From Mariniblastus sp. (GTDB lineage Bacteria; Planctomycetota; Planctomycetia; Pirellulales; Pirellulaceae), in NCBI GenBank assembly GCA_023300235.1, contig JALZWN010000143.1, forward strand, positions 1 to 59,421: a DNA stretch of 59,421 bases, written 5' to 3'. Numbering within the stretch: the first letter of the stretch is position 1; each line of letters opens with the position of its first letter. Below the pieces are notes generated by a model that did no database searches, was not told the DNA's origin, and saw only the letters and a list, made by a program, of their open reading frames with translations. Positions 33,610-42,318 of this stretch are shown here, piece after piece. The position numbers were made by a program, and so were the translations under genes.

Positions 33610-34806
33610 TTAAGCGTAAAGTTCTAGGTAGCCGTGCAGCATCGAATCGAAGGGGAAGTTCTTGGCGGCGTGGTCTTGGCCTTGTTGGGCGAGACGGCTG
33701 CCGGGTTCGGTTTGCTCGATCAAGTACTTGGTCCAGCGAGCGAATTCGTCGCGAGCCCCAAAGTTAGTAGCGAATCCTGTTGTTTGGTGGTCAATGACCG
33801 GGGCGGTACCAGGGCCTAGAACGCTGATCGCTGGGATGCCCATGGCCATCGCGGCCAACAGCGGTCCCGGGAGCGGGCTTTGAAGGTGCGAGTGCCAGTA
33901 GAAGTCTGACGCGGCGATGTAAGATTCAGGTTGCTCGGGCAGGCCCAGGAAATGAATGTGATCTTTCGCTTCGGTTTGCCTAGCAAATTTCTTTAGACGC
34001 CAAAGTTGGCTACCGGTGCCGATGATCGCAAAATGAAAGTCCTCGCGAATACAAGCCAATAGGTCCGTTGCCCAGATCAAGTCTTTCAATCGAGTCCGCG
34101 CTTCGAGGTCTGCGACGGTGATTGCGAGGCGAGCGTTCTCGGGCAGCGACAGCGAGTCGCGGATCGATTTACGCAGGTCGCAGCGGCTGATTGCACCGCG
34201 GTCGACAATGGCAATTTTTTCTTCTGGCGGATACTGGTCACCGACGCGGATGCCGGTGCGAATGATTTGTGTGTTTGCGGCGATCAATCCTTCGTCGGCC
34301 AGATCGTCGGCGACTTCTTCTTGCGGGACGATTAACGTGTCGATTTGAAAGCTTAACTTGTCTTCTAACAACGAGCGAACAAAATTCTTTTCGGGGTGTA
34401 AATTGAGCTCGGTGGCCATCAATCGAACTTCTGGCAAGTTGGTGGCCAGTGGTAGTTTTTGGATTGCGAGTAATGTCAGCCAGATGGCTTCGCCGCACCA
34501 GGCGTGGAGGGTGTCGGGTTCGACTAACCGAATCAGGTTTCGCAGTTCGCGAATCACCGTAAAGGCATCGCGGTGGGTGTGCAATGGCGTTCGGTCGTCA
34601 CCGTTGATGAAGAACACGCGGACACCGGCATCCACCCAGCGGGAGACTTCGTCGGTGCGTTGCCCCAGTACGGCAATGACGATGTCTTTTCCAGCGGCGG
34701 CGAGTTCGGATGCTAACGGAAACAGTAACTGAGCCGGCCCCAGAGGGTACAGGTGCTCGACGGTAAATAAGATGCGCTGGCTCACGGTAGTTTGGGCTCG
34801 ATTCAA
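33610..34806 (-). CDS. Glycosyltransferase (GT4-like)
   Basis: 'LARQTEAKDHIHFLGLPEQPESYIAASDFYWHSHLQSPLPGPLLAAMAMGIPAISVLGPGTAPVI' resembles the GT4 donor-binding region. Confidence 0.75.
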   Translation of the reverse strand: MNRAQTTVSQRILFTVEHLYPLGPAQLLFPLASELAAAGKDIVIAVLGQRTDEVSRWVDAGVRVFFINGDDRTPLHTHRDAFTVIRELRNLIRLVEPDTLHAWCGEAIWLTLLAIQKLPLATNLPEVRLMATELNLHPEKNFVRSLLEDKLSFQIDTLIVPQEEVADDLADEGLIAANTQIIRTGIRVGDQYPPEEKIAIVDRGAISRCDLRKSIRDSLSLPENARLAITVADLEARTRLKDLIWATDLLACIREDFHFAIIGTGSQLWRLKKFARQTEAKDHIHFLGLPEQPESYIAASDFYWHSHLQSPLPGPLLAAMAMGIPAISVLGPGTAPVIDHQTTGFATNFGARDEFARWTKYLIEQTEPGSRLAQQGQDHAAKNFPFDSMLHGYLELYA

Positions 34807-34820
34807 TTTCCGGAATGAGA

Positions 34821-36023
34821 TTATGAGGAAGGTCGTGGTGCGTTGGGCGTCGAAACTTCATTTAAGTAGTTGCCGACGGTTTGTGAAATGTGAAAGTGAG
34901 TCATTGCCCATTCGGCCGCGGCCAACCCGATTTGGATGCGTTCGATCGGGGATTGGATTGTTTTCGCGATTGTGTTGGCGAGGTTTTCTGGGCTGCTGGC
35001 CGCTGCCGTGATGGTTTGCGTCTGGTCGGTCAAACCCAATGCCGTAGCGTTTGGTTCGGTCATGATCGGGCATAAGTTCGCCATCATTGCTCGGGTTAGC
35101 ATGGAGCACGCGATTGATCCTCGTAGCGGATGGACGTAGGCGTCGGCCGCGCGAAAGATGTCTTCGTAGTTGTCAAACTGTCCGGGCATGATAATCGAAT
35201 CGGTCAGGTTTTTGGAGACGATTGTATCCCAGACCTTTCGCGAGCGGGGACCTTGGCTGACGATGAAGAGCTTGGCGGCGGGGATTTTGCGCACGACGAT
35301 CTTCCATGCTTGAACGAGGTCTAGCATGCCTTTGTCGCCAGCGGCCAATGCGCCGCAGATCAACAGTGGTTGTTCGGGGGTGACAGCCAGCATGCCATGG
35401 GAGGCACCTATCGCTTGTCTGGCAACCGCTTTACTGCAGAACTTGGCTGGAGGTGGGGGCTGCGGAAGGATGCCTTCGGGGGTGATGACCAGTTTTGATG
35501 TAGGTAAGCCGGCCGTTTGGAGAATCTGAAAGGTGCTTTCAGATTCGACTAAAATTCGGTCGGCGAGTTTGAGCGAATTTGCTTGTCGATTGTTAACCAC
35601 GCTTGGGCTAGATGTCGAAGCAATGGCGTGGTCATGTAAGCGGACGATAAGCGGTGTTTGGCCAGCAAATGTTTTGGCGAGTGAGCTAAATTCCGAGAAC
35701 GCGTTGAAGAAAATCAAACCGTCGACGGGGTTCTGGTTGAGGTAACGAAGAAGGTTTTTTTGATAACGAAATCCACCCCATGGTGCGGACGTCGAGCGAT
35801 AGATTCGTTGCACGTCGAAGTTGCGAAAGCGAAACGAAGCTGGCAGGGAGGTATTCCAGCCAGGAGTGATGACTTCGACTTGATGGCCGTGTCGGACGAT
35901 TGCTTGGGCTAGGTCGCTGAGTGCGAGCGCATCACTGCCCGAGCAAGGCCAGAATTGAGGCGATAAGATCGCGAGTTTTTTTGGCTGAGCGACGTCGGTT
36001 GTCGGTTGGGTGAGCGTGCTCAT
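34821..36023 (-). CDS. Glycosyltransferase (GT4-like)
   Basis: 'LAILSPQFWPCSGSDALALSDLAQAIVRHGHQVEVITPGW' N-terminal motif; 'SIIMPGQFDNYEDIFRAADAYVHPLRGS' C-terminal region. Confidence 0.82.
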   Translation of the reverse strand: MSTLTQPTTDVAQPKKLAILSPQFWPCSGSDALALSDLAQAIVRHGHQVEVITPGWNTSLPASFRFRNFDVQRIYRSTSAPWGGFRYQKNLLRYLNQNPVDGLIFFNAFSEFSSLAKTFAGQTPLIVRLHDHAIASTSSPSVVNNRQANSLKLADRILVESESTFQILQTAGLPTSKLVITPEGILPQPPPPAKFCSKAVARQAIGASHGMLAVTPEQPLLICGALAAGDKGMLDLVQAWKIVVRKIPAAKLFIVSQGPRSRKVWDTIVSKNLTDSIIMPGQFDNYEDIFRAADAYVHPLRGSIACSMLTRAMMANLCPIMTEPNATALGLTDQTQTITAAASSPENLANTIAKTIQSPIERIQIGLAAAEWAMTHFHISQTVGNYLNEVSTPNAPRPSS

Positions 36024-37106: not shown

Positions 37107-38537
37107 TTAGTCCCACCACCATTGTTCTGCATTGAGGCCAGACAGGTCGATTCCGTCGCGAACTCCGTTCAGCTTGCCCGCTGTGTCGACAGTGATGTAT
37201 TCAGAGTTGAGAGCGATCTTCGCTTGGATTGCTACGCCACCTGCGATCGGTGACATGAATTTTCCGTTCTTCCAGTATGCGTTGGCGATTGGAGCAACTT
37301 GCGTGGCGGCCGAGTATTTTTCAACGGGGAACAGGTTCTCGTCGCCAAGCACGCCCAGTGACCAGTCAGCTTGGCTGTACAAATCCATTTTTTGAATGAA
37401 CGCAGCAGTGATCGACATGTCGATCACGTTGCGAAGTTCAGCCCAGATTGGAGTCGCTTCGGCAAGCTTTGCGTATGTTTTGGTAAAGCTGTTAGTGAAC
37501 GCTCGGCTGGCTCGGCTGGACTTTCCAGTGCCTTTGCGTTTGCCATCGGCGGTAACGGATTCGTCTTCACCGACAAGCTTGACACCTTCACCGGCAATCT
37601 CCATTGCGGTGCGGTCGTCGTTGATCGTGACACAATTGTAGTCAGGTTGGAAGAACCAGCGTTGCAGGCTGTTGCTGCCACTGACAGGATTCGCTTTGGC
37701 AACAAACGAAGTGATGCCTGATACGGCAGGACGCTCGAGCTCCAGGCCGATTAGCTTCATGCGATAATCGGCTTCGACCAAAACACGCGCGAAGTCGGAC
37801 TTGGGTGAGATGCCTGTTACCTTGACGGTTTGTGGGCCAAGGGCTTCTTTGAAAGACGCAACGACTTTGTTTTCCATTCCCGGGCCGAACTGGCCAGAAC
37901 TTTGCCACTGCTTTAAAACTCTTTGAAGACGTGTGATGCCTTCCTGGGTGGGATCGATCGAGCAAGTGATCAGCGATGGTTTGTTCATGTCAGGAGCAAA
38001 GGCTCGTAGAGCAACAACCAAATCTTCAAGCTTTAAGGTCGCTCGGCCTGAGTGCATGCCAACGACAAAGTTTTCTGCACTGAAGAAGAAACCTTCTGCA
38101 GGTCCGGCAATGACGATGTCTTTGGTTTCTGGGTAGAAGAACACGTGAGTAATCTTCGTGAGTCCGGCCAAGTACTTCATCTCCGCAGGAATCGGCTTGC
38201 CGGCTTCGATTAGTTTAGCTACTTCGCTCTCCAATCGATTAAGCGAAACTTTGCGAAGCTGACTGACTTGTTGCAAATCTTTGTTCAAGGCAACTTTGGC
38301 TGCGTTGAAACGCTGAGCGTTTAGGCGTTGAGCGTTTTTCGGAATCGGCCGAGGGGCCAGAAGTCCCTCGGCGCTGATTAATACACCACCGACTTGTGGA
38401 GCGTCGCCATCTCCATCTCCATCTCCATCTCCATCACCGTCGTCGTCCTGAGCCATTAGTGCTGAGGATGAGAGTGTCAGTGCGCAGGCAAAGACGAACA
38501 AGAATTTGAGTAGCCAAGTCCAATTGCGAACAAGCAT
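37107..38537 (-). CDS. DUF1598-like exported protein
   Basis: Signal peptide followed by DDDGDGDGDGDGDGD; 'KDIVIAGPAEGFFFSAENFVVGMHSGRATLKLEDLVVALRAFAPDMNKPSLITCSIDPTQEG' resembles DUF1598. Confidence 0.7.
   Translation of the reverse strand: MLVRNWTWLLKFLFVFACALTLSSSALMAQDDDGDGDGDGDGDGDAPQVGGVLISAEGLLAPRPIPKNAQRLNAQRFNAAKVALNKDLQQVSQLRKVSLNRLESEVAKLIEAGKPIPAEMKYLAGLTKITHVFFYPETKDIVIAGPAEGFFFSAENFVVGMHSGRATLKLEDLVVALRAFAPDMNKPSLITCSIDPTQEGITRLQRVLKQWQSSGQFGPGMENKVVASFKEALGPQTVKVTGISPKSDFARVLVEADYRMKLIGLELERPAVSGITSFVAKANPVSGSNSLQRWFFQPDYNCVTINDDRTAMEIAGEGVKLVGEDESVTADGKRKGTGKSSRASRAFTNSFTKTYAKLAEATPIWAELRNVIDMSITAAFIQKMDLYSQADWSLGVLGDENLFPVEKYSAATQVAPIANAYWKNGKFMSPIAGGVAIQAKIALNSEYITVDTAGKLNGVRDGIDLSGLNAEQWWWD
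38407..38436. repeat. In-frame hexanucleotide microsatellite (ccatct)n encoding Gly-Asp repeats
   Basis: ccatct x4 plus ccatca. Confidence 0.95.
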
Positions 38538-38844: not shown

Positions 38845-41800
38845 TCAGCTCTTCATGCCGACGTCATCAAGGCCATGCTCATCATCGAGGGCGCGGAATG
38901 ATTTTTCATCGCCGCTTTCTTGGATGGCTTTCCAGTGTTTGGCGATCTTTTCCACCGAGTTTCTGATCTGAGCTTCGGTGTGTTTTGCGGTCATGAAGAT
39001 TCGTACTCGGGTCTCTTTTTCAGGGACGGCCGGGTACAAAATCGGCTGGGCGTTGATTCCGTCGTGGAACAGGGCTTCGGAAAGTCTGAGTGCTTTGACG
39101 CTGTGTCCGGTCATGACGGGGACGATGGCGGTGCCTTGGGCCATGCCAGTATCGATGCCGGCCTCGCGAGCAAGTTCAAGAAACAGTTTGGCGTTGCTTT
39201 GTAGTTTGGCGACCAGTTCAGGTTGTGCTTTCAAAATGCGCAACGCCCCCAAAGCGGCTCCTACATTGGCTGGTGGCATGCCCGCGGCAAACACGTAACC
39301 GGGAGTTGTGTAGCGTAGGTATTCGATCAATTGTTGGGAGCCACCGATAAAACCTCCGCAGCTGCCAAGTGATTTTGAGAGTGTGCCCATCCAAAGTTCG
39401 ACTTCTTTACGATCGACGCCGGCGACTTCTGCGATACCGCGTCCGGTGTCGCCGAGGGTTCCGATGGAGTGGGCTTCGTCCACGTATAGCCACGCTTTGT
39501 GTTTATTCTTGACGTCGACAAACCGCTGCAGTTCAGGGTAGTCACCGTCCATGCTGTAGAGCCCCTCGATCGCGATTAAGACTCGGCGGTAGTCACCACG
39601 GATGTTCGTGAGTGTTTGGTTGAGCTCGCGCCAGTTGTTGTGTTCGAATGGTCGGCGGCGGGCTCCTGAGAGTTCGGCGCCTTGGACGATGCTGTTGTGA
39701 GCAAAGCTATCGTGAATGATCAAGTCTCCGGGGCCAACGAGGTGGCCGATCACGGATTCGTTACACGCGTGACCGCCGGGGAAAGTCATCACGTCTTCCA
39801 CGCCGATGAACTCGGCAAGTTCAGCTTCGAGTTCGCGGTGGATGGTTTTTTCGCCAGAAACGATGCGGCTGGCGGAAACGCTGGTGCCAAATTCGTCGAT
39901 TGCGCTTTTGGCAAATGCACTTACGTCCGCTAGGCCGGATAGGCCAAGGTAATTGTAGCTGGCGTAAGAAATTAACTCGCGTCCGTCGATGCGTGTGGTG
40001 TCGCTGATGCGGCCTTCGTGAACGCTAAAGAACGGGTTGCGAATGCCGGTTTCTTGGATGTCTTGCTGGATGCTTTTGAGTCGCAAGAACTCGGGCATTT
40101 TTTCCAGTACGTAATACGACTCGGGAACTGGGCCGTTGTTCTTGGCGGCGGCTCCGTTTGTGTTGGCGACGCCAGCGACTCCGTTGACCGGTTGAGTGCC
40201 GATGTGTTCTTGGATCGCAGTGGCGACCTCGCGGACGGTGTGGACTTCTTGTAGTACGTCTTCGGGCATCCGCCCGCCGAACATCGTTTGCAAGCTTTCG
40301 GCGACGTCCAAGCGTTCGAGTGAGTCGAGACCTAGGTGAACGATGTTGGTGTCGACGGTGACGTTTTTGGCGCGGTCTTGGCCGACTTTTTCGACGAAGT
40401 GAATTACGGCGTCGACGACGACCGATGACAATCCGCTTTCGTCGGTCGAATTCGTCGCAACTGCAGGCGCGGCGATGGCAACTGGTTCGGCTTCGGCGTG
40501 ATGGGATTCTTCCCACGCACTCCAGCGAGCGATGACGTGTTTGTCGAGGTTGTTTTCGAAGTTCTTTTTACAAGCGTGGCGTTGGACTTTGCCGGAAGAG
40601 GTTTTGGGGATGCTGTAGGCACGGACCAAGACGATCGCGTCGGGCGGCAGGTCATGTTCTTCGTTGATCGACGCCCGGATGGCTTCGATGACCTCGTGTT
40701 TGTCGGATTTGATTTTGCCTCGTTCGCTGCGTTCAATTTCGCAGTAGATCACCAAGTGTTCACGGTCCCAGCGAGTCACCGCAAACGCGGCCGCTCCACC
40801 GGATCGGGTTAACGGGTGGCATTGTTCAACTGTCGCTTCGATGTCTTGCGGATATCGGTTGACCCCGCGAACGATGATCATGTCTTTCAAACGACCGGTA
40901 ACGAACAGTTCGCCGCGGTCCATGAAGCCAAGGTCGCCCGAGCGGACGTAGATTTTGCCGTTGTCAGGGTTGAGTCGCGCTTTGAAGGTTTCGTTGGTTT
41001 CTTGTTCGCGCTTCCAGTACCCTGCCCCGCAGCTGGGGCTGTTGATCCAGATTTCGCCGATCTTGTCGTCGGGGAGCGGGCGGCGCGTTTCGGGGTGAAC
41101 GATCAGGACTTCTTCTTCGTCGATCACAGCGCCGCAGCCGACGAGCATTTTTGCGTTCGGGTCGTTTTTGTCCACTCGAACGACGGCGTGTTGGACGATC
41201 TCGTTTTTGTCAAACGGTCGGACGACGGGCGGTTTTTTGTGGTCTCCACCGGTGACGATCAATGTGGTTTCTGCCAAGCCGTAGCACGGGTAAAAACTCG
41301 TGTAATCGAAACCGTAGGGTTCAAACTTTTCAGCGAACTGGCGCATCACTTCCTCACGCACGGGTTCGGCTCCGTTGAAAGCGCACTTCCAAGAAGACAG
41401 GTCGAGTCCTTCGCAGTCTTCGGGCGTGATTTTCATCGTGCACCATGCGTAGGCGAAGTTCGGTCCGCCGCTGACCCAGCCTCTGTATTTTGAGATTGCT
41501 CGAAGCCAACGAATCGGACGAGTCAAAAAAGCGACCGGTGACATCAAGGTGTCTTCGATTCCGCAGTACAGCGGATTCAAGATTCCACCGACCAGGCCCA
41601 TGTCGTGATACAGCGGTAGCCAGCTGATGCAGGTTCCGTGCACCGGTTCCATGCGGAATGACTTGGTGATCAATCGGCAGTTGGCCAAAAGGTTTTGTTG
41701 CGTGATCATCACGCCTTTGGGATTGCCTGTGGAGCCGGAGGTGTATTGGATCAGGCCAAGATCGTCAGGCTTAAGGTTTGGTTTGACCCAGTCGTCGGCG

Positions 41801-42318
41801 TAGTGCGGGTCGATTGATTCGGTGGCCAGCCATGGGATGCGTTGCAAGCCTGGTGAGTCTTGGACAAAGTCTTCGCAGCGTTTAATGATGGTTTGCGTAG
41901 TCAGTGCGACGGCGGCTTCGGCATCGAGTGAAATCGAACTGATTCGATTCATGTTGCGGTTGCGTCGCGGCGGGTAGGCCGGGATCGGTGTGACGGCGGC
42001 GTAGTGACATCCAAGGAACGCTGCTAAAAAATCCAGCCCTGGATCGTACAGCATGAGCGCGCGTTTGCCGGCGTAGCCATGAGCGACAAGGTAGGCTGCA
42101 ATGGCTCGCGCTTTTTTGTCCAACTGCGCGTACGTCAGTTCTGCCGGATTGTCTAATTCACCGGCTTCTAGAAAACGATATGCGGTACGATCGGGCATCG
42201 CTGCCGCCCAGTAACGCAAGCGTTCTAGTAAGTTAGTTTCGGGAGGCGAAAATGGCCGGAATAATTCTTCAACATCCACTACAAGCGAACTCCGGGAAGG
42301 GCGAGGCTTCTGATCCAA
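38845..42318 (-). CDS. Fused fatty-acyl-AMP ligase / acyl carrier protein / alpha-oxoamine synthase (aminotransferase class I/II fold)
   Basis: FAAL: 'LIQYTSGSTGNPKGVMITQQNLLANCRLI', 'SWLPLYHDMGLVGGIL'; ACP: 'NIVHLGLDSLERLDVAESLQ'; AOS: 'ISYASYNYLGLSG', 'LYVDEAHSIGTLGDTGRG', PLP-Lys 'WMGTLSKSLGSCGGFIGG'. Confidence 0.92.
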   Translation of the reverse strand: MDQKPRPSRSSLVVDVEELFRPFSPPETNLLERLRYWAAAMPDRTAYRFLEAGELDNPAELTYAQLDKKARAIAAYLVAHGYAGKRALMLYDPGLDFLAAFLGCHYAAVTPIPAYPPRRNRNMNRISSISLDAEAAVALTTQTIIKRCEDFVQDSPGLQRIPWLATESIDPHYADDWVKPNLKPDDLGLIQYTSGSTGNPKGVMITQQNLLANCRLITKSFRMEPVHGTCISWLPLYHDMGLVGGILNPLYCGIEDTLMSPVAFLTRPIRWLRAISKYRGWVSGGPNFAYAWCTMKITPEDCEGLDLSSWKCAFNGAEPVREEVMRQFAEKFEPYGFDYTSFYPCYGLAETTLIVTGGDHKKPPVVRPFDKNEIVQHAVVRVDKNDPNAKMLVGCGAVIDEEEVLIVHPETRRPLPDDKIGEIWINSPSCGAGYWKREQETNETFKARLNPDNGKIYVRSGDLGFMDRGELFVTGRLKDMIIVRGVNRYPQDIEATVEQCHPLTRSGGAAAFAVTRWDREHLVIYCEIERSERGKIKSDKHEVIEAIRASINEEHDLPPDAIVLVRAYSIPKTSSGKVQRHACKKNFENNLDKHVIARWSAWEESHHAEAEPVAIAAPAVATNSTDESGLSSVVVDAVIHFVEKVGQDRAKNVTVDTNIVHLGLDSLERLDVAESLQTMFGGRMPEDVLQEVHTVREVATAIQEHIGTQPVNGVAGVANTNGAAAKNNGPVPESYYVLEKMPEFLRLKSIQQDIQETGIRNPFFSVHEGRISDTTRIDGRELISYASYNYLGLSGLADVSAFAKSAIDEFGTSVSASRIVSGEKTIHRELEAELAEFIGVEDVMTFPGGHACNESVIGHLVGPGDLIIHDSFAHNSIVQGAELSGARRRPFEHNNWRELNQTLTNIRGDYRRVLIAIEGLYSMDGDYPELQRFVDVKNKHKAWLYVDEAHSIGTLGDTGRGIAEVAGVDRKEVELWMGTLSKSLGSCGGFIGGSQQLIEYLRYTTPGYVFAAGMPPANVGAALGALRILKAQPELVAKLQSNAKLFLELAREAGIDTGMAQGTAIVPVMTGHSVKALRLSEALFHDGINAQPILYPAVPEKETRVRIFMTAKHTEAQIRNSVEKIAKHWKAIQESGDEKSFRALDDEHGLDDVGMKS

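Follow-up and report, generated by a model that had tools for sequence, protein, structure and literature searches.

A single gene in a Mariniblastus metagenome-assembled genome (MAG; order Pirellulales) encodes, in one polypeptide, a fatty acyl-AMP ligase (FAAL), an acyl carrier protein (ACP), and a pyridoxal phosphate (PLP)-dependent alpha-oxoamine synthase (AOS). The gene lies on the reverse strand at positions 38845 to 42318 of contig JALZWN010000143.1 (C143), which at its full length of 59,421 nucleotides is referred to here as the window. Its product of 1157 amino acids, read from a TTG start, is a candidate single-chain synthase of a 3-keto sphingoid base, that is, a long-chain 2-amino-3-ketone. 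The FAAL-ACP-AOS fusion is real, with catalytic residues intact in all three domains, and judged from its sequence it is probably the self-contained first enzyme of ceramide-type sphingolipid synthesis. It would thereby be a single-chain equivalent of the AasR-AcpR-SPT system, in which AasR loads a fatty acid onto the dedicated carrier protein AcpR, which feeds serine palmitoyltransferase (SPT), and in which yghO/aca and an epimerase have been named as ceramide genes (PMC9386255). Members of the Pirellulales probably make ceramide-type lipids by a route that has so far been undescribed.

Domain architecture and placement of the fusion

The FAAL domain occupies positions 40549 to 42246 (residues 25-590), the ACP domain positions 40204 to 40419 (residues 634-705), and the AOS domain, which is of the RkpG-type clade, positions 38926 to 40089 (residues 744-1131), all on the reverse strand. 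Within a single reading frame, Pfam recognizes AMP-binding (residues 35-435, E 1.7e-60), a DIP2/FAAL-type C-terminal subdomain (479-589), PP-binding (651-702, E 1.6e-7), and Aminotran_1_2 (782-1125, E 7e-45). The three-domain assignment is common to Pfam, NCBIfam, and PDB sequence searches, and the FAAL, ACP, and AOS folds are predicted in five AlphaFold models (predicted local distance difference test 76). The preliminary description of this DNA had reported an open reading frame of 1157 residues with FAAL-like, ACP, and PLP domains, and these searches, together with Foldseek, recover the same domains in a frame that lies exactly at the coordinates given there. The FAAL part contains the motifs YTSGSTGNPKG (residue 192), YGLAE (346), GRLKDMIIVRGVNRYPQDIE (475), and PKTSSGK (571), followed by GLDSLERL (663) in the ACP and GTLSKSLGS (978) in the AOS. 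Among the aligned relatives, the core adenylation motifs, Lys577 of PKTSSGK, the phosphopantetheine serine Ser666 of GLDSLERL, and the PLP lysine are invariant. An artefact of frame or assembly is excluded, because the same fusion recurs across the genus and in other genera and families.

By both model and structure, the first domain is a FAAL rather than an acyl-CoA ligase. The NCBIfam FadD32 model scores 415 bits and PRK12476 428 bits, against 142 bits for the CoA-ligase model PRK06187, and the closest solved structures by sequence are the FAAL of the Synechococcus olefin synthase and a Legionella FAAL. Foldseek likewise matches this half to the olefin-synthase FAAL with C16/C18 adenylates (palmitoyl and stearoyl; TM 0.91 by target), and by similarity to this enzyme the fusion may act on fatty acids of C16/C18 chain length.

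The third domain carries the residues that define the alpha-oxoamine synthase superfamily, namely the PLP lysine (Lys982), the His and Asp contacts (His874, Asp947, and His950), and the carboxylate-binding Arg1106, all of which are conserved in the window and in its relatives. Its closest solved structures by sequence are Sphingobacterium SPT, KBL, and ThAOS, and in Foldseek SPT is the top match (TM 0.88), with ThAOS also near. The gate for amino-acid size has been located at the position of ThAOS Val79, which is Ser in SPT and 8-amino-7-oxononanoate synthase (AONS), Thr in 5-aminolevulinate synthase, and Val in KBL (PMC11906848). In the fusion this residue is Ser817, aligned to the SPT serine, and Arg1106 is likewise as in SPT.

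In a tree of 70 AOS sequences (IQ-TREE, C20), the fusion AOSs fall in a clade of 38 (support 100/99) with Sinorhizobium meliloti RkpG, which was recognized by its position between a type I polyketide synthase/fatty acid synthase (PKS/FAS) gene and a short-chain dehydrogenase/reductase (SDR) gene in the capsule region, and with other carrier-linked AOSs. These comprise capsule-locus AOSs beside type I PKSs, a Planktothrix PKS-AOS, actinobacterial members, and AOSs that end 2,570-residue proteins of other Pirellulaceae genera. SPT (98/89), BioF, KBL, and HemA lie outside this clade, and of the deeper placements, a sister relationship to SPT (p 0.18) and a grouping with BioF (approximately unbiased [AU] test, p 0.107) were not rejected. 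Phylogeny and shared motifs assign the domain to an RkpG-type, carrier-linked clade rather than to the classical SPT clade.

The rhodobacterial AasR, AcpR, and SPT (Caulobacter CC_1165/1163/1162; E. coli BL21 ECD_02851/02853/02854) comprise the same three activities, and their genomes also encode a YghO/aca N-acyltransferase and an NAD-epimerase, as here; the present case differs in that the activities reside in one polypeptide, the AOS clade is not that of SPT, and the bCerS-like gene is unlinked. In E. coli BL21, yghO, the fatty acyl-AMP ligase, the NAD-epimerase, the ACP, and spt are separate neighbouring genes, to whose products the fusion is 34% (FAAL) and 33% (AOS) identical, with a weak ACP match (E 0.006). 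All components of such a module, a FAAL-type synthetase, an ACP, and an AOS, are present in the fusion, and their covalent linkage suggests that they would act jointly. RkpG of the rkp-1 capsule region and its capsule homologues share the AOS clade, 46-54% identity, and the SASR and HNS motifs, while differing as separate proteins beside a type I PKS/FAS (RkpA-type) in capsule loci, with no FAAL. Classical SPTs (Sphingobacterium 3A2B, Sphingomonas 2JG2, and Bacteroides) share the catalytic residues, the carboxylate Arg, and the gate Ser, and SPT is the best single structural match of this half; they differ in forming a separate clade, at 33-35% identity, and the fusion scores under the SPT model cut-offs.

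The architecture is present as first described but is not new, since A-CP-PLP2 was listed in 2013, with no function given, for Blastopirellula marina (Milano et al. 2013, PMC3870968). The listed proteins (B. marina A3ZWL3 and Microscilla marina A1ZVW4) have the same domain order, one of them coming from the same bacterial group, but they appear there among architectures resembling nonribosomal peptide synthetases and PKSs and annotated as AOS, without function, partner genes, or distribution. New here are the order-wide conservation, the clade assignment, and the link, at genome level, to a homologue of ceramide synthases; from these follows a pathway that is specific and can be tested.

Candidate ceramide-type partner genes and their coupling to the fusion

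A search of the genome with YghO retrieved a protein on contig C116, hereafter protein A (35% identity over 376 residues, E 1e-61), and a second, weaker match on contig C49. Protein A is a full-length homologue of E. coli YghO, of the sphingolipid N-acyltransferase (bCerS) family, so that the genome includes the N-acyltransferase of an AasR-AcpR-SPT type module, although it is not linked to the fusion here. The earlier statement that no sphingolipid genes are adjacent is thus true within the window but misleading, because the ceramide-synthase-like gene sits on another contig. Divergent from protein A on C116 lies an NAD-epimerase, of a type that includes CerR, and this pairing recurs in three further families, in one case with an epimerase that is CerR-like. 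The epimerase beside protein A shares only 23-28% identity with CerR-like proteins, an epimerase on C133 is similarly distant, and searches of the genome for CerR with the E. coli and G030 epimerases returned distant matches only. Because its match to the HpnA model is also below cut-off, the epimerase is regarded as a candidate. On an Aureispira (Bacteroidota) plasmid, an SPT-clade gene, a homologue of protein A (31%), and a CerR homologue occur together, which anchors the families of protein A and CerR to sphingolipid synthesis.

The C49 match belongs to a genus-specific trio (locus L081, 5979-11210) consisting of an 825-residue protein, a stand-alone AOS (AOS-B) whose gate position is Ala, and a YghO-like N-acyltransferase. 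In genome G005 this trio is found beside protein A, an epimerase, and a KAS II gene.

Co-occurrence was scored in 69 Pirellulales genomes, with the fusion defined by both halves in one frame and protein A by at least 44% identity to the copy of the present genome. Both were found in 62 genomes, neither in three (G026, G029, and G036), the fusion only in two (G012, a 77% complete MAG, and G143), and protein A only in two (G004, 80% complete, and G025). Fisher's test gave p 0.0018 for all 69 genomes and 5e-4 for those at least 90% complete, or 0.0036 and 0.0013, respectively, when G097 is counted as lacking the fusion. G025 has another AOS beside an A-like gene, plausibly a replacement for the fusion. 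The two genes occur together in 17 families, and the cleanest single within-family contrast is that of family f13, where G108 has both and G036 neither.

Physical linkage in other genomes supports the coupling of the fusion and protein A. In another planctomycete (L192), the fusion, an ABC ATPase, an ABC-2 permease, a glycosyltransferase-like gene, and protein A follow one another on one strand with tight spacing, with a convergent epimerase after protein A; in G108 an A-like gene comes just after the fusion, and in L202 an HpnA-like epimerase adjoins it. With protein A in the genome, order-wide co-occurrence, and linked loci elsewhere, the sphingoid-base reading of the preliminary description is strengthened.

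Further support comes from a plasmid of the alphaproteobacterium Acidisoma (L093, 3807-8997), where an RkpG-clade AOS sits with an SDR, a YghO-like gene that lacks annotation, a sterol-desaturase-family gene, and glycosyltransferases; this is a candidate compact glycosphingolipid locus.

Proposed pathway and alternative explanations

In the pathway proposed, the FAAL domain would convert a free long-chain fatty acid and ATP to the acyl-AMP, and the fused ACP would receive the acyl group on the phosphopantetheine arm of its Ser666, giving acyl-S-ACP. A small amino acid, most likely L-serine, would then undergo decarboxylative Claisen condensation with this acyl thioester in the PLP domain, through Lys982, and a 3-keto sphingoid base would be released. 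Protein A would N-acylate the 3-keto base, and the epimerase-type reductase beside it, or another family member, would reduce the ketone, in the order known from Caulobacter, where bCerS N-acylates the 3-keto base and CerR then reduces it (PMC11087976). Export of the ceramide-type lipid would be the final step. The first three steps rest on domain homology; L-serine as co-substrate is suggested by the gate residue and the ceramide partner, and the reductase and the final lipid are named here provisionally. The mechanism first put forward, in which the protein activates a fatty acid, loads it on its own ACP, and condenses it with an amino acid, fits every feature and is supported; the protein corresponds to a fused form of the experimentally characterized AasR, AcpR, and SPT.

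Several points weigh against this pathway. The AOS scores below all the NCBIfam SPT equivalog cut-offs (NF047599, NF047600, and NF047603; best 297.5 against 640 bits, and 292 against 500 bits for the E. coli-type model), and a forced placement of the window lineage inside the SPT clade was rejected (p 3e-6). The gate Ser is also not exclusive to SPT, being found in AONS, which uses alanine. RkpG, the nearest relative of known context, belongs to capsule loci, where a type I PKS lies upstream of it, and no report on its product was found. The epimerase is only a candidate for the ketone reductase, and the genus itself has a second stand-alone AOS, AOS-B, with its own YghO-like neighbour; as AOS-B lies beside protein A in G005, protein A could serve AOS-B there. 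Genome G097 has protein A, yet its fused AOS is without the PLP Lys. Finally, the Fisher test takes genomes as independent, and the co-occurrence is partly confounded by shared ancestry.

An alternative that we consider rather unlikely, while giving it more weight than any other, is that the fusion makes its long-chain amino-ketone not from serine but from glycine, alanine, or cysteate, or that the product has another fate, for example a 1-deoxy-sphingoid base from alanine, a sulfonolipid base from cysteate, or a lipid anchor of a surface polysaccharide as suggested by the capsule context of RkpG. The membership of RkpG and of capsule-locus AOSs next to type I PKSs in the AOS clade is in line with this, as are the gate Ser of alanine-using AONS, the richness of Black Sea waters in 1-deoxyceramides (PMC11334938), and two glycosyltransferase family 4 (GT4) genes at positions 33610 to 36023 on the same strand as the fusion. 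These glycosyltransferases are, however, not conserved with the fusion, and the YghO/bCerS partner with its ceramide-type linkage favours a ceramide-like product whichever amino acid is used. Phosphosulfolactate synthase (ComA) was not found in the genome, so that a cysteate/sulfonolipid route via ComA is absent.

It appears improbable that, in this genus, the sphingoid base comes from AOS-B, acting with its YghO-like neighbour or with protein A, and that the product of the fusion is an unrelated secondary metabolite. The YghO-like gene directly follows AOS-B, and a row in G005 unites AOS-B, the YghO-like neighbour, the epimerase, and protein A, of which the latter three recur as a row in G011; but AOS-B was seen in the genus only, whereas the fusion and protein A are found together across families, and the fusion, which stands alone with no biosynthetic cluster around it, is nearly universal, which fits a core enzyme. 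Least credible of all is the reading of the PLP domain as BioF or KBL joined to an acyl-activating module. It draws on generic similarity (334 bits to the bioF model TIGR00858), on the annotation of such domains as 8-amino-7-oxononanoate synthase in the 2013 survey (PMC3870968), and on the AU test, in which the grouping of the fusion with BioF was not rejected. A BioF or KBL identity was nevertheless rejected, as the bioF score is under the 426-bit cut-off and the KBL models give 262-298 bits against 460-493, and as the genome has a separate BioF, encoded next to bioB, and a separate KBL, which both exceed the curated cut-offs and branch away from the fusion clade. The FAAL homology is, moreover, to C16/C18-binding enzymes and not to a pimeloyl ligase. 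The grouping with BioF that the preliminary description had named as a refutation was thus not what the tree recovered.

Distribution, genomic setting, and significance

Of the 24 congeners sampled, 23 have the full fusion, and almost all other Pirellulales families have it as well; identity is 64-76% within the genus and 47-58% in the order's other genera and families, and among the named relatives are Mariniblastus, Blastopirellula, and uncultured Pirellulaceae. In a phylum-wide sample, the genome under study was the sole match at E 1e-180 or better, and scattered fusions occur outside the order in Phycisphaerales, Desulfobulbaceae, and Limnothrix. A full-length alignment in Pseudanabaenales (L182) was not counted as an intact fusion because its reading contains two stops, and G181, considered as a distant fusion, has FAAL-ACP without an AOS. 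In the G097 fusion (L245), FAAL and ACP are intact and the AOS is decayed, with GSLGHALGS at the PLP Lys region and the stacking His lost. In four genomes of genus g18 (L069, L246, L247, and L248), the PLP-contacting Asp of DEAH is changed to Asn (NEAH) in all four fused AOSs, with the Lys retained, and these genomes additionally carry a 2570-residue multidomain AOS protein of the same clade, so that the fusion may be changing its role there.

A second family of full-length FAAL-ACP-AOS fusions (L129, 5318-8626, in G074, and L128 in G090) is 35-38% identical to the fusion, and its AOS, with Val at the gate and a GVR motif, falls in a different clade, for which reason the architecture seems to have arisen at least two times. 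On a Legionella lytica plasmid (L235, 5875-10746), a stand-alone AOS is followed by a large protein annotated as phosphosulfolactate synthase, which matches the query's FAAL part as well, and then by a 2-phosphosulfolactate phosphatase gene; in appearance this locus is a counterpart of the fusion based on cysteate (sulfonolipid-type).

The neighbours of the fusion in the window are aroB, dprA, a DUF1598 gene, hpt, and the two GT4 genes, and in congeners they are genes for an amino-acid kinase, a carbamoyltransferase, RNase PH, and GAPDH. As the neighbours differ between lineages, an operon was not inferred from the neighbourhood, and with housekeeping genes around it that vary by lineage, the fusion behaves as a stand-alone core gene and not as part of a secondary-metabolite cluster. 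The DUF1598 protein downstream (37107 to 38537, reverse strand), of a family of unknown function, has a DGDGDGDGDG run after a signal-like N-terminus.

We found no report of sphingolipids from cultured Pirellulales in the open-access literature searched, and since a cultured host exists in Blastopirellula marina, the question can be tested now. A Black Sea survey recorded 138 planctomycete MAGs with 'Spt-like' proteins and deemed AOSs outside the SPT-containing clade probably non-sphingolipid (PMC11334938). It may be, although our confidence falls slightly short of even, that the Pirellulales begin sphingolipid synthesis with a single-chain enzyme that took its condensing domain from the RkpG clade and not from SPT and that, by extension, RkpG of rhizobial and related capsule loci yields sphingoid-type bases. 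If so, ceramide-type lipids would have a second entry route, recruited separately and nearly universal in a planctomycete order, and there would be a concrete chemical hypothesis for what RkpG does in capsule loci. Such a self-contained enzyme, with a fatty acid, ATP, and an amino acid as its sole requirements, would moreover lend itself well to use as a biocatalyst. Sphingolipid-making bacteria are recognized by SPT, and producers of this kind would be open to being overlooked in searches based on SPT phylogeny; if the fusion makes a sphingoid base, an entire order of planctomycetes common in the environment would become a predictable source of ceramide-type lipids.

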